A stretch of DNA of 64,000 nucleotides from Serinicoccus profundi. Lineage in GTDB: Bacteria; Actinomycetota; Actinomycetes; Actinomycetales; Dermatophilaceae. A model generated the notes under the pieces. That model saw nothing but the letters and a program-made list of their open reading frames with translations. It made no database searches and was not told the origin of the DNA. The stretch lies in assembly GCF_008001015.1 (NCBI RefSeq), contig NZ_CP042862.1, forward strand, positions 1,302,001 through 1,366,000, written 5' to 3'. Numbering within the stretch: the first letter of the stretch is position 1; each line of letters opens with the position of its first letter. Below are positions 220-62,828 of this stretch, in pieces. A program made the position numbers and the translations under genes.

Positions 220-3200
220 ATGTCGCCCAGCCTGTCCGCCGCCTCGTGGGTGCTGCGCGTCGCCGACGCCCACCTGCGGGCCGAGGTCGGCGAGCTGACC
301 CTGGCGCGGGGGCAGGGGTATGCCGAGGGCGGCCACGTCCGCACCCTGGTCACCGGCCCTGACGGGGCGGCGCTCGTCGGCACGGTAGTCGGCAGCGGTG
401 GCCGCGTCTACCAGACCGTCGTGCGCGTCCACGACCGTGACCTCGTCGTCTGGAGCGGCCAGTGCAGCTGCCCGGTGGGTCAGGACTGCAAGCACGCCGT
501 CGCGGTGCTCATCGCCGCCCGCTCGCGGCTGCGCTCCGCGGCACCCGAGGCCCCGGGTTGGGAGACCGCGCTGGCGCCGCTCGTGCGCACCGTGACCGCC
601 TCGGCCACCCGGCACCGGCTCGGCCTCCAGGTGTCCCTGACCCGCGGGCCCGGCGGCCGCGACGAGCGCGTCCGGGTGTCCCTGACCCCGGTGCGACCCG
701 GCAAGTCCAAGCCCTGGGTCGGTCAGGGCGTCGGGTGGGACGACCTCACCAACCGCTGGTCGACGACCGATGTCGACCCGGCGCACCGCGCCTTGCTGGG
801 CCAGCTCGCGGCGCTGGGCAAGAGCTCGGGCTTCGGCTACTTCTACTCCTCGGCCAAGGAGCTGCCGCTCGGGGAGATCGGCGCGGTCGCCTGGCCCGTG
901 CTCGCGCAGGTCGTGCAGGCAGGTGTCCCCCTCGTCGCCGGGCCGGGGCTCGAGGACGTCGGCCTGGGGGAGGGCAGCGCCTCGGCCGCCCTCGACATCG
1001 TCCGCCGCGACGACGGCGGGCTGACGGTGTCGGGCACGGTCGACGTCTCCGGCGACCTCCCGCTGCCCGGCACACCCTTCCTCCTCGGCCGACCGGCCCA
1101 CGGGCTGGGCTGGCTGGAGACCGAGCGCGACCGCCTCACGCTGTGGCCGCTGCGCGCTCAGGTGCCCGACGCCATCATCGGTCTGCTCGAGTCGGGCCGG
1201 GAGCTGGAGATCCCGCCGGACCAGGTCGCGCGCTTCCTCACCACCTACTACCCCGCGCTGGCCCGCCAGGTGGAGCTCACCTCCAGCGACGGCAGCGTCG
1301 TCACCCCCGCGGACCACCCGCCCCGGCTCCGGCTGGAGGTGACGCCCCAGCCCGGCCACGTGCTGCACCTGCGCTGGAGTGTCGCGTATGCCGTGCCGAC
1401 GGTCGGCGCCGAGCCGGACACCGTCGTCGTCGGGCTCGACGCCGGCCCGGAGGAGGTCGCCCGCGACGAGGAGGCCGAGCTCGCGTCGATGACGGCGGTG
1501 CTGCCGCTGCTCGAGGGCTGGCCGGGGCTGCTCGCGGCGGGTCGGTCGAGCTGCCCCCTGCGTGCCCACTCCACCCTGACCGGTCTCGCCACCGCCCGCT
1601 TCGCCGCGGAGGTGCTGCCGGCGCTGGAGGCGAGCCCGGACCTCGACGTGCTCGTCCACGGCGACCTCGCGTCCTACGAGGAGGCGGGGGAGGAGCCGGT
1701 CGTCCATCTCACGACCAGCGAGGCGGGGGAGGGCGACTGGTTCGACCTGCACGTGAGCGTGACGGTCGAGGGCCAGGTGATCCCCTTCGAGCAGCTCTTC
1801 GCGGCGCTCGCGACGGGCCAGGACGTCCTGCTGCTCGACTCCGGGCTCTGGCTGCGTCTCGACCAGCCCGAGCTGCTCACCCTGCGCCGGCTCATCGAGG
1901 AGGCGCGCGAGCTGGTCGACGACGACGACGATGACGACGCCGAGGCCGGGCAGCTGCGCCTGTCGCCCTACCAGGCGGGGTTGTGGGAGGAGCTGGTCGA
2001 GCTCGGGGTGGTCCACGACCAGCAGGGCCGCTGGCAGGAACGGGTCGAGGCGCTGCTCGCCCTGGGCGAGGGAGATCGCGGGTTGGTGCTGGCGCCGCCG
2101 GGTCTGGAGGCGACCTTGCGCCCCTACCAGCTGGAAGGGTACCGCTGGCTGGTCGGGCTCTGGGACGCCGGGCTCGGGGGCATCCTCGCCGACGACATGG
2201 GCCTGGGCAAGACGCTTCAGGCGCTGGCCATGGTGGTGCGGGCCGAGCATCGGGGCGACCTGGCGGAGGGGCCGGTGCTGGTGGTCGCCCCGACGAGCGT
2301 GGTCACCGCCTGGGCCGAGCAGGCGGAGCGGTTCGCCCCGCACCTGCGCACCGCCGCGGTCACCGCGACGAGGAAGCGCCGAGGCACGGACCTCGCGACC
2401 GCCATCGGGTCCGCCGACCTGGTCATCACGTCATACACCCTGCTGCGGCTCGAGGCCGACGACTACCACGCGCTGCCGTGGAGCGCCGCGATCCTCGACG
2501 AGGCGCAGGTCGTCAAGAACCGCCGGTCGGCGACCTACCACGCGGTGCGCAGCCTCGGGGCCGCCCGGACCATCGCCATGACGGGCACGCCGCTGGAGAA
2601 CACCCTCATGGACCTCTGGTCGATGACCTCGCTCGCCGCGCCGGGGCTCTTCCCGCGGCCGGAGACCTTCACCCAGCGCTACCGTCGGCCGATCGAGGCG
2701 GGGGAGGGTGGCTCCCTCGAGCAGCTGGAGCGGCTGCGCCGCAGGATCCGCCCGTTCATGCTGCGCCGCACCAAGGCGCAGGTGGCCGGGGAGCTGCCCG
2801 ACAAGATCGAGCAGACGTTGTCCATCGACCTGCACCCCGCCCACCGGCGGATCTACGACCAGCACCTGCAGCGGGAGCGCCAGCGGGTGCTGGGGCTGCT
2901 GGCCGACCTCGACAAGAACCGTTTCAAGATCTTCAGCGCGCTGACGACGCTGCGCCAGCTCTCGCTCGACCCAGCCCTGGTCGACGAGGGCCACGCCGGG
3001 CTCGGGACCTCGGCCAAGGTCACGGCGCTCGTGGAGCGGCTGAGCGCCATCGCTGCCGAGGGGCACCGGGCCCTGGTCTTCTCCAGCTTCACCAGCTATC
3101 TCGCCCTGGTCCGGGAGGCCCTCGATGCAGCCGGGATCGGGCATACCTATCTCGATGGCCGGACCCGCGACCGGGCGGCCCGCATCCAGGCCTTCCGCGA

Positions 3201-3516
3201 CGGCGACGACCCGGCCTTCCTCATCAGTCTCAAGGCCGGCGGGGTGGGGCTGACCCTCACGGAGGCGGACTACGTCTTCGTCCTCGACCCGTGGTGGAAC
3301 CCGGCCGCCGAGGCGCAGGCGGTGGACCGGACCCACCGGATCGGGCAGCACCGGACCGTCAACGTCTACCGCATGGTGTCCACCGGCACGATCGAGGAGA
3401 AGGTCGTCGCGCTGCAGGAGCGCAAGCGGCGACTCTTCACCAGCGTGGTCGACTCGGGGGAGTTCCAGTCCGGGTCCGTGAGCGCCGAGGACATCCGCGG
3501 GCTGCTGGAAGGGTGA
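220..3516 (+). CDS. SNF2-family DNA helicase/translocase with SWIM zinc finger
   Basis: This 1098-residue protein is a Swi2/Snf2-type ATPase that would translocate on double-stranded DNA in the cytoplasm, possibly in repair or transcription-linked remodelling; the partner is unknown. A SWIM zinc finger (CxCx6CxH in QCSCPVGQDCKH) lies near residues 81-93. A poly-aspartate run sits near residue 567. Next come Walker A in DDMGLGKTLQ (about 659), the Walker B variant DEAQ (about 760) and the second RecA lobe ending in the arginine-finger motif RTHRIGQ (about 1037). The order SWIM, long acidic middle, SNF2_N, Helicase_C and the length are normal for the bacterial family. The ATG is chosen because a -10 box stands six bases before it. 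The gene appears intact and monocistronic. Confidence 0.92.
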   Translation: MSPSLSAASWVLRVADAHLRAEVGELTLARGQGYAEGGHVRTLVTGPDGAALVGTVVGSGGRVYQTVVRVHDRDLVVWSGQCSCPVGQDCKHAVAVLIAARSRLRSAAPEAPGWETALAPLVRTVTASATRHRLGLQVSLTRGPGGRDERVRVSLTPVRPGKSKPWVGQGVGWDDLTNRWSTTDVDPAHRALLGQLAALGKSSGFGYFYSSAKELPLGEIGAVAWPVLAQVVQAGVPLVAGPGLEDVGLGEGSASAALDIVRRDDGGLTVSGTVDVSGDLPLPGTPFLLGRPAHGLGWLETERDRLTLWPLRAQVPDAIIGLLESGRELEIPPDQVARFLTTYYPALARQVELTSSDGSVVTPADHPPRLRLEVTPQPGHVLHLRWSVAYAVPTVGAEPDTVVVGLDAGPEEVARDEEAELASMTAVLPLLEGWPGLLAAGRSSCPLRAHSTLTGLATARFAAEVLPALEASPDLDVLVHGDLASYEEAGEEPVVHLTTSEAGEGDWFDLHVSVTVEGQVIPFEQLFAALATGQDVLLLDSGLWLRLDQPELLTLRRLIEEARELVDDDDDDDAEAGQLRLSPYQAGLWEELVELGVVHDQQGRWQERVEALLALGEGDRGLVLAPPGLEATLRPYQLEGYRWLVGLWDAGLGGILADDMGLGKTLQALAMVVRAEHRGDLAEGPVLVVAPTSVVTAWAEQAERFAPHLRTAAVTATRKRRGTDLATAIGSADLVITSYTLLRLEADDYHALPWSAAILDEAQVVKNRRSATYHAVRSLGAARTIAMTGTPLENTLMDLWSMTSLAAPGLFPRPETFTQRYRRPIEAGEGGSLEQLERLRRRIRPFMLRRTKAQVAGELPDKIEQTLSIDLHPAHRRIYDQHLQRERQRVLGLLADLDKNRFKIFSALTTLRQLSLDPALVDEGHAGLGTSAKVTALVERLSAIAAEGHRALVFSSFTSYLALVREALDAAGIGHTYLDGRTRDRAARIQAFRDGDDPAFLISLKAGGVGLTLTEADYVFVLDPWWNPAAEAQAVDRTHRIGQHRTVNVYRMVSTGTIEEKVVALQERKRRLFTSVVDSGEFQSGSVSAEDIRGLLEG

Positions 3517-3582
3517 GCGGCGACGGCCAGGGCAGGGGGAGGACGGCCCGACGGGGCCAAGAAGGCGTCGACCGACGGGCCG

Positions 3583-3595
3583 TAGACTCCGGCGG
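3583..3595 (+). promoter_or_regulatory. leaderless -10 box (TAGACT) of cysM
   Basis: TAGACT at 3583-3588 is followed by seven bases and GTG. The block TAGACTCC...GGGTGAGCAG recurs almost unchanged before the acyltransferase gene near 26.7 kb, which supports it as a promoter-start unit. Confidence 0.5.
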
Positions 3596-4510
3596 GTGAG
3601 CAGCCCTGGTCCCTACCCCACGATGGAGGACGTCATCGGCGGCACCCCACTGGTGCGTCTGCAGCGCCTCCCGGGGCCGGAGAACGAGCGCCGCGGCAAC
3701 GTGCTGCTCGCCAAGCTCGAGGGCAACAACCCGGCCGGGTCCGTCAAGGATCGGCCAGCGATCAGCATGATCCGGGGCGCCGAGGAGCGTGGGGAGATCT
3801 CCCCGGGCGACACCCTGCTCGAAGCCACGTCCGGCAACACCGGGATCGGCCTGGCGATGGCGGCGGCGATCAGCGGCTACCCACTGGTCATCGTCATGCC
3901 CGAGGACGCCTCCACCGAGCGGATCCAGACGATGAAGGCCTACGGGGCCGACCTGGTGCTCACCCCGGCGGCGGGCGGGATGGAAGAGGCGCGCGACGTC
4001 GTGACGCGGATGGAGCGGGAGGGCAGGGGCCGGGTCCTGGACCAGTTCGGCAACCCTGACAACCCCCGTGCCCACGAGAATGGCACGGGCCCGGAGCTGT
4101 GGGCTCAGACCGACGGACGGATCACCCACTTCGTGTCCGCCATGGGCACCACCGGCACGATCACCGGGGTCTCGCGGTTCCTCAAGTCGCGCGAACCTCG
4201 CGTCCAGATCGTCGGGGCACAGCCGGCGGAGGGCTCGAGGATCCCCGGGATCCGCGCGTGGCCGCCGGAGTACGTCCCGAGGATCTTCGATCCGTCAGCG
4301 GTGGACCGGACCGTCGAGGTCGCCCAGGGCGACGCCGAGGAGACGGCCCGCCGGCTGGCTCGCGCGGAGGGCATCTTGGGCGGGATCTCCGCAGGCGGCG
4401 CCTGCTGGAGCGCGCTGCAGGTGGCCGAAGAGGTCGAGGGGGCGACGATCGTCTTCGTGGTCTGCGACCGCGGCGACCGCTATCTCTCCAGCGGCGTGTT
4501 CCCCGCCTGA
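3596..4510 (+). CDS. cysM: cysteine synthase B (O-acetylserine sulfhydrylase)
   Basis: This PLP enzyme makes L-cysteine from O-acetylserine and sulfide (or thiosulfate) in the cytoplasm. The 304 residues align by eye along their whole length with E. coli CysM: the PLP lysine in NNPAGSVKDR (about K51), the phosphate-binding loop TSGNTGIGLA, the block ITHFVSAMGTTGTITGVSRF, and a C-terminus of CDRGDRYLSSGVF. It therefore resembles the enterobacterial CysM type rather than the CysO-dependent mycobacterial CysM. The GTG start fits the leaderless box and keeps the family N-terminus (TMEDVIGGTPLVRLQ). It is convergent with the interrupted gene that follows; their 3' ends are about 22 bases apart with a short hairpin (4524-4542, stem CGGTCGA) between them. 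Confidence 0.93.
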   Translation: MSSPGPYPTMEDVIGGTPLVRLQRLPGPENERRGNVLLAKLEGNNPAGSVKDRPAISMIRGAEERGEISPGDTLLEATSGNTGIGLAMAAAISGYPLVIVMPEDASTERIQTMKAYGADLVLTPAAGGMEEARDVVTRMEREGRGRVLDQFGNPDNPRAHENGTGPELWAQTDGRITHFVSAMGTTGTITGVSRFLKSREPRVQIVGAQPAEGSRIPGIRAWPPEYVPRIFDPSAVDRTVEVAQGDAEETARRLARAEGILGGISAGGACWSALQVAEEVEGATIVFVVCDRGDRYLSSGVFPA

Positions 4511-4532
4511 GGATCCCGGCCGACGGTCGACG

Positions 4533-5729
4533 TCATCGACCGGGCAGCGACGTCTCGGACGCCTCGTCGGCGGAGGAGAGAGTCTGCGTCCACCGGGCGA
4601 AGCCGTCCAGCAGCTCGTCGCGGTCACTGCCCAAGGCCTCGCGGTAGGCCTGCTCGATCTGGTCCGCGTCGTGGCGTTGGTCCAGGACGATCAACCGCCC
4701 CACGAGGTCGATGAGCCGGTCCGGGCCGTAGGTCTCCTCGAGGTAGTACGTCAGCGCGATCGACTCCAGCGTGTAGGCGTCGGCGGCGATCAGGTCCTCG
4801 GGGTCCATCGGCACGGTGGGGAGTGCCGTCGGGGGGCCTTGCCTCGCGAAGTGGTCTCCGGCGCTGAGCAGCAGGTGCTCGGCATACGCAGGGTCTTCCA
4901 CCGAGCTCCACCAGGAGGGCGGCCCCTCCAGGATCCAGTCCTCCGGCCAGGCCTCGACGTCCTCACCCGCAGTCGCGGAGGAGGCGGCCATGTAGCGCAG
5001 CTCGGTCTGCCCGCCCGGGCTCGGGCCGTACTCCTCCAGGTCGAGCAGCGCGAGGTCGAGGTCGAGGAAGAGATGTGCCTGGACGGGGGAGCGCATGCCG
5101 GTGAGCCGACCGGCGTCACGGGGGATCTCCTCGGGCTACACCTTGAGCGGAAGGGAGGACCCGCTGCTCTCCGGCCATCCGTGCTCCTCCAGCACCTCGG
5201 CGGGGACGAGCTGGACGACCAGCCGGTCACGTCCCTGGGCCAGCCACGACAGCTCGGTCAGACTGGTTTCCGCGGCCCGGTCGAGAGTGTCGAGGATGGT
5301 CTCGGCGTCCGCCATGCGGGACCGCTGGACGAGCACGTCGACGCGGTGACCGGTCAGGACGGCCAGCTCTTCACCCAGGTCCCACAGCTGCGGATGGCCG
5401 AAGAACTCCCCGTTGCGCCCGCGGCTGTCCACGAGCAGGGGCGGCCCTTGCTCGGTCGCGGCGAACACCCATCGGTACTGCTGCAGCACCGGCACCGGGT
5501 CCGCGCCGGAGAACTGGTGGCGTAGGCCCACGTGCGCCACGGTGCCCTCGGTCGGGGTGCGGGAGACCACGCCGTCCAGGCGGAGCTGGCGCATCTCCAG
5601 GGGCGCGGCGCTCACGCCGTCGAACCACGCGCGTTGCCGGTCCTGCAGCTCCGGGGCCACGTGCGCGAGGTATGCCTCGACAGCCCCCGCCTGCAGCGCG
5701 TCGTCCATCGCGAGCAGGACCTCGTGCAC
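4533..5729 (-). pseudogene. conserved hypothetical (peptidase MA-like), split by an in-frame TAG
   Basis: Two open stretches, 5729-5136 and 5096-4533, lie in the same frame. They are separated only by a TAG (5136-5138) and 13 further sense codons, so reading through gives one continuous coding region of about 398 codons. The N-terminal half has an association-domain look (EAYLAHVAPELQDRQRAWFD). The C-terminal half has SIALTYYLEETYGPDRLIDL, like the end of actinobacterial peptidase MA-type proteins, but no HExxH zinc motif is visible. The first codon, GTG, directly follows another in-frame TAG (5730-5732), and no signal peptide is left. The 5' end may therefore also be damaged. Family assignment is weak; the in-frame stop is read directly. 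Confidence 0.6.
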
Positions 5730-5879
5730 CTAGTCGTCGCTGACCTCCGTGCCCCGGTCTTCCGCAACACCGCTCGTGGACAGCGATTGCTCCATCGAGG
5801 AAGTGGCGACCTGCGCGTCGGTGGCGGGGGGGCCGGCAGCAACCGGCAAGATCTGGACCGGAGCGGTACGGTGATGCAC

Positions 5880-6194
5880 ATGACGACGCAGGGCCCGGGG
5901 GCTGGGGACGAGGGTGCCACCATCCTGAGCTTCCCGACAGGGCACGAGGCCCCCCGCAGCAGCGAGGTCGACCTCGAGGGTGAGCCGGTCACCGTCATCT
6001 ACCTCCCGTGGCCACACGTCGTCGACGGTGTTTCCCGACCAGCCGGCCTCTACTACCGCACCACCGACGCCTCCGGGTTCTACCCCGACCCTGCGGTGCG
6101 CGGGCTGGACGCGGTGCTCGATGAGGCCCGTCCTGTGCTGAAGCACCACCTGCGGCTCCTCCGCGAGCCCGGGCAGGGGCCTGCGGACGGGTGA
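5880..6194 (+). CDS. small hypothetical protein
   Basis: This 104-residue reading frame has no family I recognise. The sequence is soluble-looking and acidic, with a segment VTVIYLPWPHVVDGVSRPAGLYYRTTDA and a basic C-terminal helix. The start is put at the ATG preceded by TACGGT (5867-5872) with seven bases between, a leaderless arrangement; an ATG at 5874 is an alternative in the same frame. It runs head-to-head with the interrupted gene on its left and convergent with the MFS pseudogene on its right. Confidence 0.5.
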   Translation: MTTQGPGAGDEGATILSFPTGHEAPRSSEVDLEGEPVTVIYLPWPHVVDGVSRPAGLYYRTTDASGFYPDPAVRGLDAVLDEARPVLKHHLRLLREPGQGPADG

Positions 6195-6228
6195 TCTCCG
6201 GGCCCCTCGTCGTCGGCGCAACGCTGGG

Positions 6229-7213
6229 TCACTCCCAGGGCATGTCCCGCAGGATGTCCTGCGGGCTGGCCAGCACGGTGTAGAAGAACCACGATGCCGA
6301 GGCGCAGACGACCATGATGGCCGCCATGGGCACCGCCGAGTCGACCTCGAACAGTCCGCTCACCGGGGAGATGAGCGCGCCGAAGACGAAGTTCGTCGCC
6401 CCGAGCAGGGCAGCAGCCGCTCCGGCGCGTTCCCCGTGGTCGGCCAGCGCGATGCTCGGGCTGTTCGGCATGACGAAGCCCACCGAGCCCATCAGCAGGA
6501 CGATGCCGCCGACGATGGCCCACGCCGACGTAGCGTCGGTCCGCGAGCAGCACCCGGTAGCTGGCCCACAGGGTGCGCGGGCCGAAGTGGCGCCGTCGCT
6601 CCGGGGGCAGAGTCTCCTTGACCAGGACCAGCGCCAACACCGCCAGCAGCACACCGAAGGCTCCCAGCGCCCAGAAGATGGTCCGCCAGCTGCCGAAGAT
6701 GAGGAACTGGGCGCCCAGCGTCGGCGCCAGGATCGGGGCCACACCGACCACCAGGAAGAGGCGGGAGATGAAGCTCGCCATCCGGGAGCCGCTGTAGAGG
6801 TCGCGGACCATGGCCTGGGACAGCACCATCCCGGCCGCGCCGGTCAGGCCCTGCACGAAGCGCAGCAGCAGTAGCACCTCGATCGAGGACGACACGGCGA
6901 TCGCCGCCGACACCACGACATACAGGGTCAGCGACGCGATCAATGGTCGGCGTCGGCCGAAGGAGTCCGACAACGCCCCGATGAGGAGCTGGCCGGTGGC
7001 GAGACCGACGAGGGTCGCAGTCAGCGTCAGCTGCACCGTGGCCTCGGTCGTGGACAGGTCCTCCACGACGGCCGGGAAGGCGGCGAGGTACATGTCGATC
7101 GTCAGCGGACCGATCGCGACGAGCGCCCCGAACAGCAGCAGCCGACCCAGCGGGGAGGGTTCGGTGCGGGGCCGGGAGGATGCGGGAGGTGCTGCGAGGG
7201 GGACTGATCTCAC
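6229..7213 (-). pseudogene. MFS drug transporter (Bcr/CflA type), internal deletion and frameshift
   Basis: The first 230 codons from a GTG give a clean Bcr/CflA N-half: six membrane segments, the motif DSFGRRRPL between TM2 and TM3, and TAAGMVLSQAMVRDLYSG in TM4. At about 6505-6540 the frame changes. The other frame then reads AIVGGIVLLMGSVGFVMPNS and a tail that matches TM10-TM12 of the family (AGAAAALLGATNFVFGALIS). The TM7-TM9 region of roughly 80-100 residues is therefore missing as well as the frame being lost, so no functional 12-TM pump can be made. It would have been a proton-driven multidrug exporter in the plasma membrane. The loss of whole helices excludes a simple base-call error. 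Confidence 0.75.
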
Positions 7214-7385
7214 CCCGGGGCCAAGGTGGATGCTCTGCGTGATATTCCCCGCATCGGGCGCAGGGAGGGTGAGCCACCGGGCCGTCCCTCCGCCATCTCC
7301 ACCCGCGTTGTCGAGGTTCTGGCCCTAGCCGAAATGGTTCGTCGCGGTGGCCAGCGGCCCCGAGCGCCCCGCGGCAGTGCGCGAC

Positions 7386-7529
7386 TCAGGGCAGAAGGTC
7401 CCAGAACTGCCGACGGGCCGGCATCGCGTGCATGACCATCTCTTCGCCGCTGAGGGAGATGAGCACGACCGTCTCCAGCAACCTCGCCTGAAGCACTCCG
7501 TGCTTGAGCGCGCTGCAGTGGACCTTCAC
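7386..7529 (-). pseudogene. 47-residue shrunken toxin, coupled to the antitoxin gene
   Basis: The GTG start overlaps the TGA of the upstream ribbon-helix-helix gene (GTGA), a translational coupling typical of toxin-antitoxin operons. The 47 residues begin VKVHCSALKHGV and end GEEMVMHAMPARRQFWDLLP. Both ends line up by eye with the 78-residue toxin-like protein at 7865-8101 ([11 protein letters not shown] at its start; LLELV...[15 protein letters not shown] at its end), but about 30 central residues are absent. I read it as a paralogue of that toxin from which the middle was deleted in frame. It could be a tolerated inactive remnant or a micropeptide; function is unknown. Confidence 0.6.
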
Positions 7530-7774
7530 ACGGCGTAGCCGGCAAGCGCCCACCGGATTGCCTTGGAGCGAGACAGGTGCTCCCGGGCGGCATACGCGTT
7601 TAGCGCTGCGATCTCTTCGGCCGTGAGCCGCACGGCGATCACCTGGGTCGGTTCGGCCCCGCGCCCGGGACGACCCCGTCCGCGGCGCTTCAGCGTCTCG
7701 ACGTCATAGCCAGCCTCGGCCTCGTCAGCCCACTTCTGGATCTGCTCGTCGGTCACCTGATCGTCGCGTGCCAT
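7526..7774 (-). CDS. ribbon-helix-helix antitoxin-like DNA-binding protein
   Basis: This 82-residue protein opens with an acidic region (DEQIQKWADEAEAGYDVETLKRR). It then has a basic hinge RGRGRPGRGAEPTQ and a ribbon-helix-helix core, VIAVRLTAEEIAALNAYAAR followed by EHLSRSKAIRWAL. Proteins of this shape are common actinobacterial partners of small BrnT-like toxins and are expected to bind DNA as dimers and repress their own operon. The ATG has a TACGAT box (7781-7786) six bases upstream, so the message is probably leaderless. A 90-bp gap separates it from the divergent toxin-like gene, and the palindrome at 7844-7864 in that gap is the obvious candidate operator. Confidence 0.75.
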   Translation of the reverse strand: MARDDQVTDEQIQKWADEAEAGYDVETLKRRGRGRPGRGAEPTQVIAVRLTAEEIAALNAYAAREHLSRSKAIRWALAGYAV

Positions 7775-7780
7775 GGCAAT

Positions 7781-7786
7781 ATCGTA
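7781..7786 (-). promoter_or_regulatory. leaderless -10 box (TACGAT) of the antitoxin gene
   Basis: Read on the minus strand, TACGAT is followed by ATTGCC and then the ATG. The surrounding bases (TATACGATAT) are the most AT-rich stretch in this part of the window. Confidence 0.5.
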
Positions 7787-7843
7787 TAACGAAAACTTGA
7801 CGACGGGGAGAGGCCAGCAGTCACGACCGTGCGGCCTGAGCGT

Positions 7844-7864
7844 GCGTCAAGGTAACCTTGACGC
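7844..7864. promoter_or_regulatory. perfect 21-bp palindrome, candidate operator
   Basis: GCGTCAAGGT and its exact reverse complement ACCTTGACGC flank a single central A. The palindrome contains TAACCT (7853-7858), which lies six bases before the GTG of the toxin-like gene and can serve as a leaderless -10 box. A repressor bound here would cover both the -10 box and the start point. A partial half-site ACTTGACG sits at 7795-7802 near the antitoxin promoter. The ribbon-helix-helix protein encoded next to it is the likely ligand (inference). Confidence 0.6.
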
Positions 7865-8101
7865 GTGGAGATCCGAGATTCGGCGCGCAAGCGCGGGATC
7901 GTGGACGAGGAGATCGAGCACGCGTGGCTGAACGCGATGAGAGTGGTCGAATACGAGTACGCCGGTGAGGACCGGCTGCTGGTGATCGGAGCAGACCAGC
8001 ATGGCCACCTGCTTGAGCTCGTGGCAGTGCCCGCAGGTGAGCCGACCCGGATCATCCACGCAGATCGGCTGAGACCGAAGTTCTATGACTACCTGAGGTG
8101 A
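7865..8101 (+). CDS. small BrnT-like toxin-family protein
   Basis: The 78 residues start [12 protein letters not shown] and include [29 protein letters not shown] and a C-terminus [15 protein letters not shown]. This pattern (His in helix 1, central beta sheet with LLEL, C-terminal His-Ala-x-x-x-Arg) is that of small actinobacterial toxin-like proteins found beside ribbon-helix-helix genes; RNase activity of the BrnT fold is assumed, not shown. The GTG abuts the palindrome and has a -10 box six bases upstream. It is divergent from the antitoxin-like gene instead of in one operon with it, which is less common. Confidence 0.65.
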
Positions 8102-12221: not shown

Positions 12222-12224
12222 GAT

Positions 12225-53394: not shown

Positions 53395-55396
53395 TCACTG
53401 TGCGGAGACGAGCCGCTCCATCTGGTCGATCTGCACGCCCTGGGTGACGAGCATGTCGGTCGCCAGCTGCTGGACGGTGACGTCCGAGCCGTTGACGATC
53501 TCGTCCACGGCCATGTCGATCGCGCCCTCGTGGTGCGGCACCATGAGCTCGACGAAGAGGGCGTCGAACTCCGCGCCCTGCGCCGCCTCGAGCTGCGCCA
53601 TCTCCTCGGCCGACGCCATACCCATCTCCTCGAGGTGCTGCGGGTGACCGAGCATCTCCTGGTATGCCGTGACCTCGTCGGTCACCGGGTGGCCGTTGGC
53701 GCCCTGCCAGCCCTGCATGACGCCGATCTCGAGCTGCTGCTCCAGGAGCATCCGGTCGGCGAGCGCCGCGAGCTGCGGGTCGGCCATCCGGTCCTCGGCG
53801 AGCTGGGACATGAGGATCGCCTGGTAGTGGTGCGGGATCATCATCGACATGAACATCGCGTCGGCCTCGGCGGACAGCGCCGTGGCCTCCTGGCGGCTCT
53901 GAGCCGTCATCCGCTCGGCCTGCGCTGCGGAGACGACCTCGGCGCGCTCACCCGGAGCGGCCGGCACGATCGCCGACGTCGTGTCCTTGCCGTCGAGCCC
54001 GGGGGCGTCGCCGGCGCGGCTGCCGGAGCGGCCCGGGGTGAACGCGTACTGCGTCTGGGCGTTGAGGAAGTCCATCTTCGCCCGGTTGTCACCCTTGGTG
54101 CCGCGCACCTTGAGGACGTCCAGCCCCTGGGTGATGTCGCTGGAGTAGATGTGGCCGTTGTAGTAGTACGCCGACCAGGAGCCGCCGACGACGAGGCTGT
54201 CGTCGTCGATCGGGCCACGGTCGAAGTAGGCGATCCTCGGCGGCGTCGGAGTCGGTGAAGTCGAAGACCGACACCCCGCCCTGGTACCACGCCTGGACCA
54301 TGACGTCACCGTCGACGACCGGCACGATCGAGCCGTTGTGGGCCACGCAGTTCTCGGTGTCCTGCTGGTGTCGCGGGATCTTGTAGTAGCTGCGGAAGTC
54401 CAGCGCCGGGGCGCCGGTGTAGTCCACGTCGAAGATCGCGTTGGCGCCACGGTTGGGGCCGACCGCCTCGTTGCACGTGGCCGCGCCGCCGCCGCCGAGC
54501 TCGTCGGTGAAGATCACCTTCGACCCGTCGTTGTTGAAGGTCGCCGAGTGCCAGAAGGCGAAGTTGGAGTCCTGGACCTGCTCGGTGACGACCGGGTTCA
54601 CCGGGTCGGAGATGTCCATGAGGATGCCGTCACCCATGCAGGCGCCGGCGGCCAGGTCACGCTCGGGGTATGCCGTGATGTCGTGGCACCCGCTCGTGCG
54701 CGGCCCGCCGCCCTCGGGGAAGAGGACCGGCTCGGAGACGACCGCGGCCGACGCCGGGTCGTCCGTGGGCACCTCGATGACCGAGATCCCGTCGTGCGGC
54801 GGCTGGCAGTGGGGGAAGAGCGCGTTCGGCCCGTAGGAGGAGACGTAGAGGTAGTTGGTGCCGGAGTCCTCACCCGGGACGAGCGTGTGGGTGTGCGAGC
54901 CGCAGTCGGTGCGCACGGCGCCCGCGTAGTCCGGGCTCTCCAGGTCGGAGATGTCGAAGATCCGCATCCCCTCCCAGCCGTCGGGGTTCGCTGTGCTCGT
55001 CGGCGAGCTGGAGCAGGTGTCGTCGGTGCGGGCGTAGTCGACCGACATGAAGAGCAGCGAGCCGTCCTCGGAGACCGACACGTCACCCTGACCACCGGGG
55101 CACAGCACCTGGCTGACGAGCTCGGGGTCCTTGGGCTTGGAGATGTCCCAGATGCGGAACCCGTCGTAGTTGCCTTGGAAGGCGTAGTCACCCCAGAAGG
55201 AGATGTCGGAGTTGAAGGCCTCCAGCGGCGCCTGCTTGGGGGTGTTGCTCAGCAGCGTCATGTTGTCGCTGATGTCGATGTCGTCCGGGTCGGCCTGGAC
55301 GGCTCCCGGCAGGTACGCGACGCTCAGGGTGGTCGCGAGGGCGGCCGTCGCTGCGGTGCGCAGCAGACGGCCTGCCCGGTTCGTGGTGTCTGCCAT
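53395..55396 (-). pseudogene. secreted LVIVD-repeat / DUF305 protein, one-base frameshift
   Basis: ATG followed by a signal peptide (LLRTAATAALATTLSVAYLP, cut after AVQA). A beta-propeller-like LVIVD region follows: YAFQGNYDGFRIWDISKPKD, GMRIFDISDLESPDYAGAVR, GGVSVFDFTDSDA. At about 54240-54247 one base too many (GACGCCGCCGAGG) shifts the frame; the next frame goes on RIAYFDRGPIDDDSLVVGGS. It ends in a DUF305 domain with two His pairs (MFMSMMIPHHYQAILMSQLA; LMVPHHEGAIDMAVDEI) likely to bind metal. Whole length would be about 667 residues, outside the cell. As the rest is well kept, this may be a base-call error or a very young mutation. Confidence 0.8.
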
Positions 55397-55630: not shown

Positions 55631-55678
55631 AAGAGGTCACGGGCCGTTGGCATACGAGATCTGGAATGCCCGAAGAGG

Positions 55679-58582
55679 TCAGGCCTGGCTGGCCTCCGCG
55701 AGCAGCTCGAGCACGTGCCGGTAGGGGTGTCCTGTGGCTCGGCTCATCCCGATCTCGCAGGTCCGGTTGGAGGAGACGAAGGCTGGCTGGCTCAGCGGTG
55801 TCGCGGCGGCGTTGCGATGCGGGTGGTTCTCGGAGCCTCGGCCTGCCAGTGCTCCCGCGGTGATCGCCGCAACCTCAGCCGCCTCTGCAGCGGTGGCCGA
55901 AGCCGTGAGCTCGGGGTGGAGCAGCCCTCGGTCGCCAGCGAAGGCGCAACAACCCCAGTCCGTCGGCACCACGACGTCCGTGGCGACCGCACGTGCCAGC
56001 GCGATGAGCGCCGGGGTACTGCCGGCCCGCTCGGAGGAGCAGGTCGGGTGGACCACCACCGTCCGATCACCACGCCGCACCCGCAGTCGGGGCAGGACCG
56101 TCTGGTGCACGAAGTCGAGGGCGTCCACCACGCGGAGATCCGGTGCGTGCTCGGCCAGCATCACCATGAGGCCCTCAACGCACGAAGACGCCTCAACGAC
56201 GATCGGCAGGCGCCCTTGCTCGGTCGCCCGCCGCAGCGCGGTGACCACCCGATCGGTCATTACGGCATACCCGGAAGTCATGCCCTTCGACTTCCATGGG
56301 GTCCCGCAGCAGAGGCCCCCGAGCCCTTCGGGGGTTCGCAGCGGGATGTCGGCGCGCACACACAGGTCGACCAGTGCTCCGGCCGCCCCGGAGCCGAGGT
56401 CACCGGTGTGCCCGCCGGGCTCGGTGCCGAACATCTCGCCGATGCAGGTGCTGAAGAGCACCGCCGCGGGAGAGTCCGGGTCCAGCTCCTGGCGCCGGGT
56501 GCCGCCCCCGGGCAGCCGGCCGTCGTAGAGCGGCACGGTGTCGGTGCCGGCCACCGCCCGCACCACCCGGGTGGCGGCCACCGGGAGCCCCGAGGGCAGC
56601 AGTTTCGCGGTGCTCAGCGCCAGCCCGCCGAGCGGGCCGACGGTGCCCCAGGCCCGGGCCGCCCCGGCCCAGGCGGCGTCCACGACCCGCCCCGCGGACT
56701 CGCGGCGCAGCCGGCGGGTCAGGTCACCGGTGTCGATGAGGACCGGGCACGCGCTCTGGCACATCCCGTCCACGGCGCAGGTCTGGTTGCCGTCGTAGTC
56801 GTAGTCGCGTTCCAGGGAGTCGGCGAGGGCGTGGTCGCCGGCCTCCCGCGCGGTCTGGATGTCGCGGCGCACCACGATCCGCTGCCGCGGGGTGAGGGTC
56901 AGGTCCTTCGACGGGCAGACCGGCTCGCAGTAGCCGCACTCCACGCAGCGGTCGACCTCCTCCTCGACCCGGGGGGAGGGTTTGAGGTCCTGCAGGTATG
57001 ACGTCGGCTCGTCCGAGAGCACGGCCGCCGGGTTGAGCAGGCCGCGTGGGTCGATGAGCCGCTTGAGCTCCCACATGACGGCGTAGAGCTCGTCCCCGTA
57101 CTGGCGGCGCACGAAGGGGGCCATGATCCGGCCGGTGCCGTGCTCGGCCTTGAGCGAGCCGCCCCGGCCGAGAACCAGGTCGACCATGTCCTCGGTGAAG
57201 GCCTCGTAGCGGCGCATCGAGGCCGGGTCGTCGAAGCGCTCGTTGAGCATGAAGTGCACGTTGCCGTCGCGGGCGTGCCCGAAGATCACCGACTCCTGAT
57301 AGTCGTGCGCGGCGAACAGCTCGGTGAGCGCCACGCACGTCTCGCCGAGCACGTCGACGCCCACGACCACGTCCTCCAGCAGGGCGTTGGTCCCCGCCGG
57401 GCGGGCACCGGCCACCGCCGAGAAGAGTCCCTTGCGGACCTTCCACAGTCCGGCCCGCTGACCGGTGTCTCGGGTGAGCCGGGCCGGGGCGGTCAGCGGC
57501 AGCAGGTCCAGGGTGGGGGCGGCCGCGGCCAGCGCGGCGTCCAGCTCGTCGCCGGTGCCGCCCTGCCACTCGACCAGCAGCGCGGCGTGCTCGTCCACGC
57601 CCAGCGCGGCGATCTGCGGTGGGCACCGGGGGTCCTGCTGGGCCACCCGCAGCGAGGCCGCGTCGAGCAGTTCGGCGGTCGCCACGTCGGTGCCGGCCAG
57701 CGCGGGCACGGAGCCGGTGGCCTCGCCGATGGTGTCGAAGACGAGCAGCCCGGTGGCGACCTCCGGGTGCACCGGGACGGTCGCCAGCACGGCGGACGCG
57801 ACGAACCCGAGGGTGCCCTCGCTGCCGATCATGAGGTGTACCAGCATGTCGAGCGGGCTCTCGAAGTCGAGGAGCGCGTTGATCCCGTAGCCCATGGTGT
57901 TCTTCATCGAGAACAACCGCTCGATGGTGGCCACCGACGTCGGGTCGGCGAGCACCCGGCGGCGCAGCGCCAGCAGCCCGGCCACCAGCTCCGGCTCCCG
58001 GGCCGCCAGCTCGGCCTCGGCGTCCGGGGCGCCCGAGTCGATGACGGTGCCCGAGGGCAGCACGAAGGTCATCGACTCCAGGGTGGCGTAGGTGTTGAGC
58101 TCGGTGCCGCAGTGCATACCGCTGGAGTTGTTGGCGATGACGCCGCCGAGCGTGCAGGCGCCCTCGCTCGCCGGGTCCGGCCCGAGCTTGCGGTGGTAGG
58201 GCGCGAGCCGGGCGTTCACCGCACGGACCGTCACCCCCGGCTGGACCAGGACCCGCGCCCCGCCGTCCAGGACCTGGACGTCGGTGAAGTGGCGGCGGGT
58301 GTCGACCAGCACCGCGTCCGTGATCGCCTGCCCGGACAGGCTGGTGCCCCCGGAGCGGAAGGTGATCGGCGCACCGACCCGGTCACAGGCGGCCATCACC
58401 GCGGCCACCTGGGCGGTCGAGGTGGGGCGGACCAGCAGCTCCGGTGTCAGCAGGTAGTGCGAGGCGTCGTGCGACAGCGCGTGCAGGTCCAGCGGGCGCC
58501 GGCTGACGGTGCCCGCCCCCAGCTCCGAGGCAAGGGAGCTCTCGAGTCGGCTCCAGGGGATCTCCAGGGTCGTCCGCGGCAC
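55679..58582 (-). CDS. FAD/Fe-S D-lactate (or glycolate) dehydrogenase, Dld/GlcD-GlcF fusion type
   Basis: 967 residues. An N-terminal VAO-type FAD domain (PITFRSGGTSLSGQAITDAV, GVIANNSSGMHCGTELNTYA) is followed by an FAD-oxidase C domain (IFGHARDGNVHFMLNERFDD, LKAEHGTGRIMAPFV). Two [4Fe-4S] motifs come next (CVECGYCEPVCPSKDL; CAVDGMCQSACPV), then two CCG-type domains (LGGLCCGTPWKSKG; DWGCCAFAGDRGLL). It oxidises a 2-hydroxy acid, probably D-lactate, and passes electrons to the quinone pool at the membrane. GTG is preceded by TAGGCT with seven bases between (58590-58595), a leaderless start. The frame is intact. Confidence 0.9.
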   Translation of the reverse strand: MPRTTLEIPWSRLESSLASELGAGTVSRRPLDLHALSHDASHYLLTPELLVRPTSTAQVAAVMAACDRVGAPITFRSGGTSLSGQAITDAVLVDTRRHFTDVQVLDGGARVLVQPGVTVRAVNARLAPYHRKLGPDPASEGACTLGGVIANNSSGMHCGTELNTYATLESMTFVLPSGTVIDSGAPDAEAELAAREPELVAGLLALRRRVLADPTSVATIERLFSMKNTMGYGINALLDFESPLDMLVHLMIGSEGTLGFVASAVLATVPVHPEVATGLLVFDTIGEATGSVPALAGTDVATAELLDAASLRVAQQDPRCPPQIAALGVDEHAALLVEWQGGTGDELDAALAAAAPTLDLLPLTAPARLTRDTGQRAGLWKVRKGLFSAVAGARPAGTNALLEDVVVGVDVLGETCVALTELFAAHDYQESVIFGHARDGNVHFMLNERFDDPASMRRYEAFTEDMVDLVLGRGGSLKAEHGTGRIMAPFVRRQYGDELYAVMWELKRLIDPRGLLNPAAVLSDEPTSYLQDLKPSPRVEEEVDRCVECGYCEPVCPSKDLTLTPRQRIVVRRDIQTAREAGDHALADSLERDYDYDGNQTCAVDGMCQSACPVLIDTGDLTRRLRRESAGRVVDAAWAGAARAWGTVGPLGGLALSTAKLLPSGLPVAATRVVRAVAGTDTVPLYDGRLPGGGTRRQELDPDSPAAVLFSTCIGEMFGTEPGGHTGDLGSGAAGALVDLCVRADIPLRTPEGLGGLCCGTPWKSKGMTSGYAVMTDRVVTALRRATEQGRLPIVVEASSCVEGLMVMLAEHAPDLRVVDALDFVHQTVLPRLRVRRGDRTVVVHPTCSSERAGSTPALIALARAVATDVVVPTDWGCCAFAGDRGLLHPELTASATAAEAAEVAAITAGALAGRGSENHPHRNAAATPLSQPAFVSSNRTCEIGMSRATGHPYRHVLELLAEASQA

Positions 58583-58790: not shown

Positions 58791-58834
58791 CCCGCGCGTT
58801 CGAGGGTGACGAGGTATGCCGTGGCCTCCCGGCA

Positions 58835-58986: not shown

Positions 58987-61032
58987 TCAGACGGTGCGCA
59001 GGAACTCCAGGTGACGCTCGTAGGCGTCCAGGCAGTCGTGGATGACCTGGGCCCGGGTGTAGCCCATGACGTCGTAGTCCTGCCCGCCCTCGGCCAGGTG
59101 CACCTCGAGCCGGGCGTAGCGGTCGCGGTTGCCGATCATCCGACCGCCGTAGGTCGGGACGGGGTGCAGGCCGACACGGACGCGGTAGACGAAGGGGTGC
59201 TCGGCCTCGACGGTCCGCAGCTCGACGAACTCCCCGCCCTCGGGGTCCTCGTCGTCCGGCGGCGCGATGCCGCGCGTCGTCTCGGCGTCGACCCCGCGCG
59301 TCCGCAGCTCGGCGGCCACATCGGTGAGCGCCGGCTCGACCACGGAGGCGAGGTAGGCCTCGGCGTCGTCGGTGTCGACGAAGTTGGTGGCCCGGGCGAC
59401 GCGCGCCTTCCACGTCTCCTTGTCGCCGCGGCCCTCGCCCACGGCATACGGGACCGCGTGCGTGCCGCTGCCCGACTCGACGCGGCGCATCTCGGTGCGC
59501 AACGCCTTGAGCAGGCCCCACATGACGAGGACGAGGACGATCGCGAAGGGCAGCCCCATGATGACCGTGGCGTACTGCAGGGCGTAGATCCCGCCGACGG
59601 CGAGGACGGCGATCGTCAGCAGGCCGGTAGCCGCCGCCCAGACGATCCGCAGCCACGGCGCGCAGTCCTCCTGGACCGAGCGCAGCTCGGAGCACAGGTT
59701 GCCCATGACCAGAGCGCCGGAGTCCGCGGAGGTGACGTAGAAGAGCAGCCCGACCGTGGTGGCGACCAGCACGAGCAGCCCCGCGGCGGGGTAGTCCTGG
59801 AGCAGCATGAAGAAGCCGCGCCCGTCGTACTCCTGCGCGGCGGCGGCGAAGTCGGCATCACCTCCGCGCACCCGGTCCAGCGCGGCGTTGCCGAAGATCG
59901 AGACCCACATGACGATGTAGGCGAAGGGGATGACCATCGTGCCGGCGACGAACTGCCGGATCGTCCGCCCCCGGGAGATGCGGGCGAGGAAGAGACCGAC
60001 GAAGGAGGCCCAGGCGACCCACCAGGCCCAGAAGAAGAGGGTCCAGAGGTTCATCCACTCGTTGGCCCCGTCGTAGGCCATGGTGTCCATCGTCATCGTG
60101 GGGAAGCGCCCGACGAAGTCGCCGACGTTCATCACGACGCCCTCGAGGAGCAGCTGGGTCCTGCCGGTGATGAGCACCCAGGCCGCCAGGCCCAGGGCGA
60201 GTATGACGTTGAGCTGGGACAGGAAGCGGATGCCCTTGTCGACGCCGGTGGTCGCCGAGATCGCGGCGATGGTGACGGCGAGGACGACCAGGCCGATCTG
60301 GGCGGCCAGCCCCTGCTGGACGCCGAAGAGCTCGCCGAGACCGAAGTTGAGGAACACCACACCGATGCCCAGGCTGGTGGCGACGCCGAAGATCGTCCCG
60401 AGGATCGCGGCAGTGTCGACGGTATGCCCGAGCGCGCCGTCGATGCGCCGCCCGAAGATCGGGGCGAGCGCGGAGCGGACCGCCAGCGGGTAGTTGAGGC
60501 GGTAGGCGAAGAATCCGAGCGCCATGCCCATGAGGGCATACATGCCCCATCCGGTGATGCCGTAGTGGAAGAGCGTCCAGACGGTCGCCTCCCGGGCGGC
60601 CTGCACCGTCTCGCCCTCGATGACCGGGGGCGCGATGTACTGCGTCACCGGCTCGACGACGGAGAAGAACATCACGTCGGTGCCGATGCCGGCGGCGAAG
60701 AGCATCGAGGCCCAGGCGAAGGTGGAGAACTCCGGCCGGGAGTGCGCCGGGCCGAGCCGGAGGGTGCCGTAGCGGGAGATGCCGAGGTAGAGCACGAAGA
60801 CGAGGATCACCGTGCCCAGCGCGATGTAGAACCAGCCGAAGGCGCCGCCGACCCACTCGGTCCAGGAGTAGATCGTGTTGTAGGCCTGCTCCGGCATGGC
60901 GATGGCCCAGATCGCGAAGAGCACGACGCCGACTAGGGAGGCGACGAAGACGGGCATCCGCACCGGTGGGGAGCCGGTCGGTTTGGCGGGTGGGGTCGGG
61001 GTGGGGGTGGCCTTCTCGGTGGTGGCGCTCAT
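58987..61032 (-). CDS. betT: BCCT-family choline transporter
   Basis: 681 residues. Twelve membrane helices carry the BCCT signatures: WASMLFAAGIGTDVMFFSVV (here GIGTD, where many members have GIGxG), NLWTLFFWAWWVAWASFVGL, FLARISRGRTIRQFVAG, and VTSADSGALVMGNL. A long hydrophilic C-terminal domain of about 170 residues (FVELRTVEAEHPFVYRVRVG, AQVIHDCLDAYERHLEFL) is like that of proton-driven, osmotically regulated BetT. It imports choline for betaine synthesis. The ATG shares one base with the betA stop (TGATG). Last gene of the visible bet operon. Confidence 0.93.
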   Translation of the reverse strand: MSATTEKATPTPTPPAKPTGSPPVRMPVFVASLVGVVLFAIWAIAMPEQAYNTIYSWTEWVGGAFGWFYIALGTVILVFVLYLGISRYGTLRLGPAHSRPEFSTFAWASMLFAAGIGTDVMFFSVVEPVTQYIAPPVIEGETVQAAREATVWTLFHYGITGWGMYALMGMALGFFAYRLNYPLAVRSALAPIFGRRIDGALGHTVDTAAILGTIFGVATSLGIGVVFLNFGLGELFGVQQGLAAQIGLVVLAVTIAAISATTGVDKGIRFLSQLNVILALGLAAWVLITGRTQLLLEGVVMNVGDFVGRFPTMTMDTMAYDGANEWMNLWTLFFWAWWVAWASFVGLFLARISRGRTIRQFVAGTMVIPFAYIVMWVSIFGNAALDRVRGGDADFAAAAQEYDGRGFFMLLQDYPAAGLLVLVATTVGLLFYVTSADSGALVMGNLCSELRSVQEDCAPWLRIVWAAATGLLTIAVLAVGGIYALQYATVIMGLPFAIVLVLVMWGLLKALRTEMRRVESGSGTHAVPYAVGEGRGDKETWKARVARATNFVDTDDAEAYLASVVEPALTDVAAELRTRGVDAETTRGIAPPDDEDPEGGEFVELRTVEAEHPFVYRVRVGLHPVPTYGGRMIGNRDRYARLEVHLAEGGQDYDVMGYTRAQVIHDCLDAYERHLEFLRTV

Positions 61033-62828
61033 CACGGGTTCCTCTCGCTGGTGGACCCGGCCGCCCGTCGGAGCCGCTCGGCCGATGGCGGGTCCGTGAT
61101 CGCGTTCCACGCGGCGTTGCGCGGATCGCCCGGCGGGTAGAGGGGCTGCCCGGCGCCGTGGCGGTACCACGGCACGTCGGCGGCAGGCAGCGGGGTATGA
61201 CCCGCGATGAGGTCGGCGGCCTTCTCGGCCACCATCATCACCGGCGCGTAGATGTTGCCGTTGGTGACGAAGGGGAAGACCGAGGCGTCGACCACCGACA
61301 GGCCCTGCGTGCCGTGGACGCGCATCGAGGAGGGGTCCACGACGGCATACTCGTCGTCGGCGCTGCCCATCTTCGTCGTGCACGAGGGGTGCAGCGCGGT
61401 CTCGGCGTCGGCGCGCACCCAGTCGAGGATCTGCTCGTCGGTCTCGACCTGCGGCCCGGGGGAGATCTCGCCGCCGCTGAACGGCGCGAAGGCCGGCTGG
61501 CCGAGGATGTCGCGGGCGGCGCGCACCACCTCGACCCACTCGCGGCGGTCGGTGTCGGTCGACAGGTAGTTGAACAGGATCGAGGGCCGCTGGCTCGGGT
61601 CGGCCGAGCGGATGTGCACGTGGCCGCGGGTGTCGGCATACATCGGGCCGATGTGCACCTGGTAGCCGTGGAGGCCGTGCTCGGTCTCGGCGGGCTTGCT
61701 GCCGTCGTAGCGGATGGCGATCGGCAGGAAGTGGAACATGAGGTTGGGCCACTCGACCTGGTCGTTGGACCGGATGAAGCCGCCGGCCTCAAAGTGGTTG
61801 CTCGCGCCGACCCCGCGACGGCCGAAGAGCCACTCGGCACCGATGCGCGGCTTGTGGTGGTGGGCGAGCCACGGCGCGATGGACACCGGCTGGGTCGAGG
61901 AGTGCTGGAGGTAGACCTCGAGGTGGTCCTGCAGGTTGGCACCCACGCCGGGCAGCGCCACCCGGGTCTGGACGCCGGCCGCGCGCAGCACCTCGGGGTC
62001 GCCGATGCCGGCCAGCTGGAGCAGCTGGGGGGAGGCGAAGGCGCCGCCGCAGAGGATGACCTCGCCGGCCCGGACGCTGCGCTTGAGCCGACCGCCGCGC
62101 ACGTAGTCGACACCGGTGCAGCGGGTGCCCTCCATCGTCAGCCCGGTGACGGTGGCGAGGGTCTCGATGCGCAGGTTGCGCCGGTGCTCGACGGGGTGGA
62201 GGTATGCCCTCGCGGCCGAGAGGCGACGGCCGCGGTGGACGTTGCGGTCGAACTTGGCGAAGCCCTCCTGGCGGTAGCCGTTGACGTCGTCGGTGAGGGG
62301 GTAGCCGGCCTGCTGGGCAGCCTCGAAGAAGGCGCCGAAGAGGGGCGAGCTGGCGGGGCCGCGCTCGAGGACCAGCGGACCCGACCCTCCGCGCCAGTCG
62401 TCGGCGCCGGTGCGGCCGTCCTCCAGGAGGACGGTCTCCATCCGCTTGAAGTAGGGCAGGCAGTGGGCGTAGTCCCAGTGGTCCATCCCCGGCTCGGCCG
62501 CCCAGCGCTGGTAGTCCAGCGGGTTGCCGCGCTGGAAGATCATGCCGTTGATGGAGGAGGAGCCGCCGAGGACCTTGCCCCGGGCGTGGTAGACGCGGCG
62601 CCCGCCCATCGCGGGCTCGGGGTCGCTCTCGTACTTCCAGTCGTAGAAGCGGCTGCCGATCGGGTAGGGCAGCGCCGCCGGCATGTGGATGAAGGGGTCG
62701 ATGCGGAAGTCGCTGCGGCCGGCCTCGAGGACGAGCACCTTCGTGGAGGGGTCGCTGCTCAGCCGGTTGCCGAGGGCGGATCCGGCCGAGCCGCCACCGA
62801 CGATGACGTAGTCGTAGTGGTCGCTCAC
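61032..62828 (-). CDS. betA: choline dehydrogenase
   Basis: 598 residues of a GMC flavoprotein that oxidises choline to betaine aldehyde at the membrane. FAD motif: [23 protein letters not shown] signature 1: [20 protein letters not shown]. Signature 2: [20 protein letters not shown]. Active-site region: [20 protein letters not shown] and [20 protein letters not shown]. The C-terminal 45 residues extend beyond the usual end. GTG start overlaps the stop of betB (GTGA), so the genes are coupled. Confidence 0.94.

Follow-up and report, generated by a model that had tools for sequence, protein, structure and literature searches.

An orientation-dependent octamer of Dermatophilaceae genomes that may work like a DNA-uptake sequence

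The subject of this analysis is a short DNA word, the octamer GGTATGCC, and the 64-kb stretch of the Serinicoccus profundi chromosome in which it was noticed (the window: positions 1,302,001-1,366,000 of the single contig, 3,475,711 bp long, of the host genome, G000). The window holds 29 exact copies, compared with a mean of 0.70 and a maximum of 6 in 100 dinucleotide shuffles of the same stretch. The count reported in a first-pass annotation of this DNA is thus real, and all of the starting positions listed there are correct except two, 20942 and 54668, which become 20944 and 54667. On the forward strand, copies lie at 317-324, 5669-5676, 21368-21375, 22862-22869, 25614-25621, 42782-42789, 44450-44457, 46448-46455, 53661-53668, 54667-54674, 58813-58820, 60421-60428 and 62201-62208, the last of these outside any called gene. 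On the reverse strand they lie at 3140-3147, 18933-18940, 20944-20951, 23490-23497, 28598-28605, 30150-30157, 34450-34457, 35917-35924, 37327-37334, 41097-41104, 42928-42935, 44287-44294, 45370-45377, 48653-48660, 50215-50222 and 56264-56271. Two close pairs of opposite orientation occur among these, one convergent (42782 with 42928) and one divergent (44287 with 44450). Additional sites keep the core GTATGCC and lack the 5' G of the octamer, at 1386-1392, 31636-31642, 37949-37955, 43222-43228, 44519-44525, 49004-49010 and 49721-49727 on the forward strand, and at 4881-4887, 7589-7595, 29336-29342, 51932-51938, 55649-55655, 59443-59449, 60535-60541, 61344-61350 and 61635-61641 on the reverse strand.

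Between the copy at 5669, the final one ahead of it, and the copy at 18933, the first downstream, lies an island (5677-18932) in which Pfam matches identify two tyrosine integrases (8398-9693 and 9690-10832), a Mutator-family transposase (12236-13645) and an IS110-type transposase (15916-17124). The word had been described as missing from this island, which holds for the octamer but not for the core, since a single 7-mer stands at 7589. When the density of core and acquired DNA is compared, as had also been proposed, the island contains this one core in 13.3 kb, against 44 in the other 50.7 kb of the window. A second stretch of this kind, an insert in the comEC gene of a relative (G002), contains 2 cores in ~20 kb, compared with 8 in ~20 kb of its flanks. 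In these two stretches, the word is scarce in recently acquired DNA.

The complete host genome carries 1695 copies of GGTATGCC, 858 forward and 837 reverse, and 24 copies of the same word read backwards; the core, GTATGCCG, occurs 1901 times. In a 464-kb sample of G000, comprising the window and twenty 20-kb stretches (L034-L053), the octamer is observed 231 times against a trinucleotide-based expectation of 10.5, and the core 257 times against 9.8, and the top-ranked words among all 7- to 11-mers are forms of GGTATGCC. The possibility, raised in the first-pass annotation, that genome-wide counts would lie near Markov expectation is therefore not borne out. The core can be written GTATGCC(G), its 5' neighbour being often G and its 3' neighbour often T. 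Two near-miss words are depleted in the same sample, GGCATGCC (20 observed, 53 expected) and GGTACGCC (11 observed, 30 expected), as if one-mismatch neighbours were avoided or converted.

An excess of this kind could in principle be a by-product of codon usage, of codon-pair bias or of protein composition, with Tyr-Ala pairs the obvious candidate. In keeping with such an origin, the octamer is unevenly distributed over codon phases in genes called by a home-made method based on GC content at third codon positions (63/18/6 on the strand of the gene, 39/32/18 on the opposite strand), and 63 of the 87 same-strand in-gene octamers read as xGG-TAT-GCC; the earlier statement that copies occur on both strands and in all codon phases is, as regards the phases, only half right. 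However, shuffling codons among synonyms within each gene leaves 15.1 in-gene copies (standard deviation 3.5), whereas 176 are observed in the G000 sample. Moreover, the choice between the two Tyr codons before GCC depends on what precedes them. TAT makes up 14% of Tyr codons overall in G000 (genes of the window and L034-L053), yet before GCC it is used in 63/66 cases after xGG, 27/29 after xCG and 29/30 after xTG, while it is rare after xTC (1/39), xAC (0/28), xCC (8/47) and xGC (4/19), so that the ratio of TAT to TAC swings from 63:3 after GG to 1:38 after TC. The odd context is xAG, with TAT in 15/29 cases and hence no preference between AG-TAT-GCC and AG-TAC-GCC (15:14); which base stands two positions ahead of the T in TAT therefore matters. 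Density outside called genes is also equal to or higher than density inside them, both for the octamer in G000 (0.62 against 0.47 per kb) and for the core in G000 (0.77/0.72), G007 (1.00/0.83) and G069 (0.67/0.56), and short intergenic gaps are denser in core than genes are, with the exception of divergent gaps in G000 and G007. The idea that all copies reflect Tyr-Ala codon pairs is consequently rejected, on the flip with the preceding base and on the synonymous null. We give a codon or protein by-product of any sort practically no chance, and the view of the first-pass annotation that it is the DNA word, and not the protein, that is selected is upheld.

The word had also been suspected of being typical of its lineage, and a survey of the core in 117 genomes, 71 from Dermatophilaceae and 46 from other families of the same order, agrees with this. 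With word-rich genomes taken as those with >100 copies of GTATGCCG per Mb, a line of our own choosing, 51 of the 71 family genomes qualify (e.g. Ornithinimicrobium, Serinicoccus, Knoellia and Humibacillus), ranging from ~140 per Mb to the 4724 copies in 4.2 Mb of G037; the other 20 are word-poor, each with <85 per Mb. By contrast, none of the 46 genomes from other families is word-rich (maximum ~64 per Mb). Nor is any of the 290 non-family genomes, 10 of them also among the 46, in a class-wide draw of 296 that included 6 Dermatophilaceae, and none of these exceeds ~55 per Mb. A mild excess exists below the line in G046 (235 copies of GTATGCCG against 47 of its reverse), G049 (300 against 61 for GGTATGCC) and G050 (198 against 29 for GGTATGCC), and G045 stands above the line yet has a high count of the reversed word (1142 against 453).

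Among 80 named loci, the ComEC of G000 is nearest to that of Serinicoccus chungangensis (72% identity) and then to that of Ornithinimicrobium tianjinense (58%), and because its closest relatives are these two, G000 can be placed, on protein similarity, in the Ornithinimicrobium/Serinicoccus group of Dermatophilaceae. In a ComEC tree of 51 rows, in which named rows were labelled rich or poor from a single locus of 3-22 kb each and from which L056, L062, L089 and L090 (part copies or duplicates) had been removed beforehand, word-rich and word-poor rows are interleaved, with 9 changes of the word-rich label. G022, the sole word-poor genome in its genus, is sister to the word-rich G014. Such a patchy distribution suits an accessory trait, for example competence. 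At the level of single sites, 44/72 core sites (61%) are unchanged between relatives at 79-87% identity, compared with 51/123 (41%) for pooled control words and 26-46% for random 7-mers. These figures sum seven comparisons, with the reverse of the first (9/14) excluded; against G021, no more than 21.7 kb of the window was alignable. In these small numbers, core sites appear to be partly kept above chance, with turnover.

The arrangement of the copies is directional without being tied to replication. The origin was set near coordinate 1 of G000 on account of a gyrB-like frame at 6.4-8.6 kb. The strand and origin-terminus skew that the first-pass annotation suggested looking for is absent from G000: 177 of 340 core copies are on the leading strand, and orientation does not switch at origin and terminus (94/90 over the first chromosome half, 73/83 over the second), which disposes of a polar word of the KOPS (FtsK-orienting polar sequences) or AIMS (architecture-imparting sequences) type. 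Within genes the core prefers the sense orientation (437 against 290), and no clear bias towards gene ends is seen by quintile.

It is in the spacing of neighbouring copies that orientation has its strongest effect. In G000, G007 and G069 together (1026 core copies), same-orientation pairs occur at 0.18, 0.21, 0.62, 0.42 and 0.55 of the random frequency in the consecutive 100-bp steps up to 500 bp, at ~0.8 up to 1 kb and at 0.9-1.3 further out, whereas opposite-orientation pairs occur at 1.0 to 1.5 of random over the same steps to 500 bp. Within 500 bp, these genomes contain 76 same-orientation against 241 opposite-orientation pairs. Within 800 bp, opposite pairs outnumber same-orientation pairs by 114 to 49 in G000, by 49 to 17 in 11 stretches from other members of its genus and by 174 to 76 in 24 stretches from other word-rich family members; the pair counts are partly non-independent, and the 500-bp and 800-bp sets have in common the G000 sample along with some of the DNA of G007 and G069. 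The eight control words counted in G000 lean towards same-orientation pairs, show balance or have too few copies. Beyond 100 bp, convergent pairs are roughly as frequent as divergent ones, with the exception of the 500-600 bp step (35 v 19). A same-oriented neighbour thus seems to use up the value of a copy, whereas an opposite one does not, and we read this orientation-specific exclusion over 0.5-1 kb as the genomic trace of a directional process, one that is open to direct testing.

Some word-poor relatives carry other words in excess. A search for replacements was made in 17 word-poor family genomes against the same synonymous-shuffle null and in coding sequence only, of which G044 gave just 7.9 kb; G032 (only 1.5 kb), G049 and G050 lay outside it. 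GGATGCCG, which differs from GTATGCCG by one base, is top-ranked in G056 (62 against 12.6) and G046 (26 against 6.5) and third-ranked in G031 (30 against 9.8), over a background of 19 against 12.6 in Nocardioides and 16 against 11.7 in Streptomyces. We suppose it to be a dialect of the word, firmly so in G056 and less so in G046 and G031. CGAAGGGG is top-ranked in the genes of G067 (50 against 8.4) and G068 (23 against 4.2), and its pairs at 100-800 bp comprise 45 opposite against 14 same, as in the main word; when CGTATGCCG, CGGATGCCG and CGAAGGGGG are aligned, five of nine positions are held in common. Below 100 bp, CGAAGGGG forms 10 opposite against 14 same-orientation pairs, with hairpins and same-strand clusters, and for this reason it is only possibly a distant dialect of GTATGCCG. 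CGAAGGGGG itself is strongly over-represented in G067 and G068 as hairpin arms and same-strand clusters (L168 17302, L169 18662, L168 14240-14332).

A further candidate, CGTACGCC as the dialect of G054 and G070, was withdrawn because GTACGCCG is in similar excess in Nocardioides. Words containing GTAC reach 3-5 times the synonymous null in Nocardioides (GTACGCCG 57 against 16, CGACGTAC 51 against 12), G054 and G070, and GTACGCCG shows no excess in Streptomyces (23 against 24) or G000 (8 against 43); in G053, GTAC words alone showed up. No replacement resembling GTATGCCG was found in the 34-89 kb of coding sequence available from each of G022, G036, G038, G039, G040, G043, G058 and G066, where unrelated words lead, the strongest being GGAGCCGG in G036 (37 against 8.6).

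A word that is directional, strand-symmetric, family-specific, scarce in acquired DNA and repeatedly lost or altered among relatives fits the behaviour expected of an uptake tag, and we assign a probability of roughly 0.55 to its being a strand-polar tag for self-recognition in natural transformation. Among the roles left open in the first-pass annotation (uptake, repair, methylation or a nucleoid-protein site), uptake fits best, and two specific causes, repair by RecBCD and a methylase of the PF01555 type, are excluded on grounds given below. Under the uptake reading, incoming DNA would be bound at the word by a predicted surface protein, and this binding would favour passage of that DNA via ComEA and ComEC. 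Over the long term, recombination of the preferred fragments would let the word accumulate and persist throughout the core genome, newly acquired DNA would stay word-scarce, and in lineages that lost specificity or competence the word would decay or shift by dialect. The orientation of the word would fix which flank or strand threads into ComEC, and a nearby copy in the same orientation would then be redundant, whereas an opposite copy would not. Our proposal of a polar reading of the tag derives from the exclusion of same-orientation neighbours and the lack of any exclusion of opposite ones, and orientation may decide the entering flank because a monoderm would thread DNA straight into ComEC. 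Binding, uptake, a receptor and polarity are what we infer for the word, which we file as one that probably works like an uptake sequence, and no more. More tentative, and in our judgement rather doubtful, is the wider claim that Actinomycetota have here their first uptake-specificity sequence, which would also be the first of any group to be strand-polar, with the related words of some relatives as separate dialects.

Judged by sequence matches, word carriers appear to possess the gene kit for DNA uptake, namely comEC, comEA, dprA and Flp-pilus genes. A ComEC match is present in 109/117 genomes, DprA in all 69 genomes examined (43 of them from the family) and TadE in 116/117, and in tblastn searches ComEA adjoins comEC in 54 of 55 loci, 7 of which come from outside the family; the sole miss is the second half of the split comEC locus of G002. 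The exception for TadE is the word-poor G036, which also has only one weak T2SSE match and in which the Flp pilus is apparently absent.

Comparison with known systems shows likeness as well as difference. In Neisseriaceae the DNA uptake sequence (DUS; ATGCCGTCTGAA) has dialects, and genomes carry 943 to 5918 DUS each (PMC3630211); the 1901 copies of GTATGCCG in G000 and the 4724 in G037 are similar in number. The two words are further alike in being non-palindromic, in occurring on the order of once per kb and equally on both strands, in having related dialects and in an excess of very close opposite pairs. GGTATGCCGT and DUS12 (PMC2346458) have ATGCCGT in common, perhaps by chance. Unlike the DUS, the present word belongs to another phylum and a monoderm host, has no CTG core, occurs in a genome (G000) from which pilM is absent, and excludes same-orientation neighbours to 0.5-1 kb, which is not the case in the gonococcus at 100-800 bp. 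In Pasteurellaceae the uptake signal sequence (USS; AAAGTGCGGT) likewise has hundreds to thousands of copies and a second motif in a subclade. It also shares a preferred orientation within genes, which is reported for known uptake sequences (van Passel, PMC2346458). However, it is an unrelated word whose reverse complement is favoured in genes, where here the sense form is, and the present word has no clear gene-end bias.

For DUS and USS the receptor belongs to the minor pilins of type IV pili: ComP and, as a prediction for USS, ComN (PMC12616744). Closer in phylogeny is Micrococcus luteus, an actinobacterium in which transformation depends on Flp pili (PMC4322843); word carriers likewise have comEC, comEA and genes of the Flp pilus. 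In the main text of that paper no mention was found of an uptake sequence, an uptake signal, homologous DNA or the term heterologous, and in PMC8467076 none of uptake sequence, DUS, uptake signal or heterologous. Judged by titles and the beginnings of abstracts, with subscription literature thinly covered, no report of an uptake sequence or iterated word in the family or in Actinobacteria appeared among the papers listed, and a literature search for the letters of GGTATGCC produced no title on such a word among the matches listed.

Several observations weigh against an uptake role. A ComEC match is present in all 20 word-poor family genomes as well, and T2SSE ATPases, TadE and PF12705 (117 genomes) and DprA (69 genomes) do not split rich from poor, G036 aside. 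Conversely, comEC is damaged in three word-rich genomes, being split by ~40 kb in two members of the genus, G002 (L056 from 10.2 kb, L057 to 10.3 kb) and G017 (C46:68443-109701), while the G014 gene (L055 9083-11035) looks damaged in that it lacks alignment residues ~398-533, with two aligned parts that overlap but stand in different frames. Recent loss could account for this damage, but given the kit in word-poor genomes and the damaged comEC in three rich ones, the kit genes can account for no more than a part of the pattern. The pilM gene of the type IVa pilus is absent from G000, with matches in 4/71 family genomes, one of them below the cut-off, and a ComP-like type IVa minor pilin is thus unlikely as receptor; no receptor candidate turned up in a search that left Flp pilins and other surface proteins outside its range. 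To our knowledge, natural transformation has not been reported in Dermatophilaceae, although no search at genus level was made. The orientation signal of the supposed dialect GGATGCCG is weak (36 v 29 pairs at 100-800 bp in three genomes, p = 0.46; in G056 by itself, GGATGCC gives 40 v 23 pairs within 800 bp). Lastly, the gonococcal DUS10 yields 97 same and 97 opposite pairs at 100-800 bp (409 copies in 500 kb), with 4 same against 14 opposite in the 200-300 bp step and 91 opposite against 1 same below 50 bp; such hairpin pairs could mask a same-orientation exclusion.

Explanations that dispense with uptake have to be set beside these points. Chi sites of RecBCD or AddAB (motifs in PMC8022716) resemble the word in being short, oriented, non-palindromic and in excess in the core genome. 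RecBCD itself is ruled out, because among the 51 word-rich genomes 18 lack a RecC match, with 14 of the 18 at least 95% complete and 4 under 90% (the RecC-negative set comprises 56 genomes, 20 named directly and the others absent from the match list), even though G000 itself has RecC. RecC is altogether patchy, occurring in 44/71 family genomes, and outside the genus of G000 10 of its 14 carriers are word-poor or have a dialect. A Chi-like hotspot might instead serve a helicase-nuclease of the AdnAB type, which would read it from one side only, so that each end of a break would be served by copies of one orientation. Orientation-specific redundancy over ~0.5-1 kb is what one would expect of a one-sided signal, and PDDEXK_1 (PF12705) is present in 115/117 genomes, in frames of ~1050-1160 residues that are compatible with AdnAB. 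Yet PF12705 is present in word-poor genomes too, and Chi has a leading-strand excess, which the word lacks (177/340), and Chi-type words are enriched just a few-fold. We consider such a hotspot unlikely.

A site for the upkeep of the chromosome, required on each strand about every kb for strand discrimination, nicking or one-strand methylation in mismatch repair, would be equally frequent on both strands, genome-wide and redundant only within one orientation, all of which fit a need for a site per strand near any error. However, G000 and 30 more of the 51 word-rich genomes have no match to a PF01555 methylase, which removes an enzyme of that type as the cause, and loss of the word in 20/71 relatives is a poor fit to a basic repair need; this explanation is live but speculative, and seems to us a little less probable again than the hotspot. 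The slimmest prospect of the three is a site kept by binding of a nucleoid-organising protein or as an iterated word like the highly iterated palindrome HIP1 of cyanobacteria, GCGATCGC, which is likewise a lineage-typical genome-wide octamer. Genome-wide spread and restriction to one family are compatible with such a site, but GGTATGCC, unlike HIP1, is not palindromic, by which an iterated palindrome of the HIP1 type is set aside, and the near equality of convergent and divergent pairs beyond 100 bp, bar that one step, speaks against it. A one-base variant and losses among relatives are moreover harder to account for.

If the uptake reading is true, the word would add a third, independent case to the two Gram-negative families in which uptake sequences are documented, this time in monoderm actinobacteria, and would imply that the trait arises repeatedly. 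It would also provide a handle with which to seek natural transformation in Dermatophilaceae, and with 71 genomes and ~9 changes on the tree, the receptor should be findable by co-evolution of gene and word.

A minor observation concerns the insert that splits comEC in G002. It carries a terminal serine integrase (Resolvase and Recombinase domains) and a Gp3-like recombination directionality factor, and GGCAGCAACGTC is found at both of its junctions. The gene looks like the attachment site of an integrase element, and in Listeria comK is such a site.

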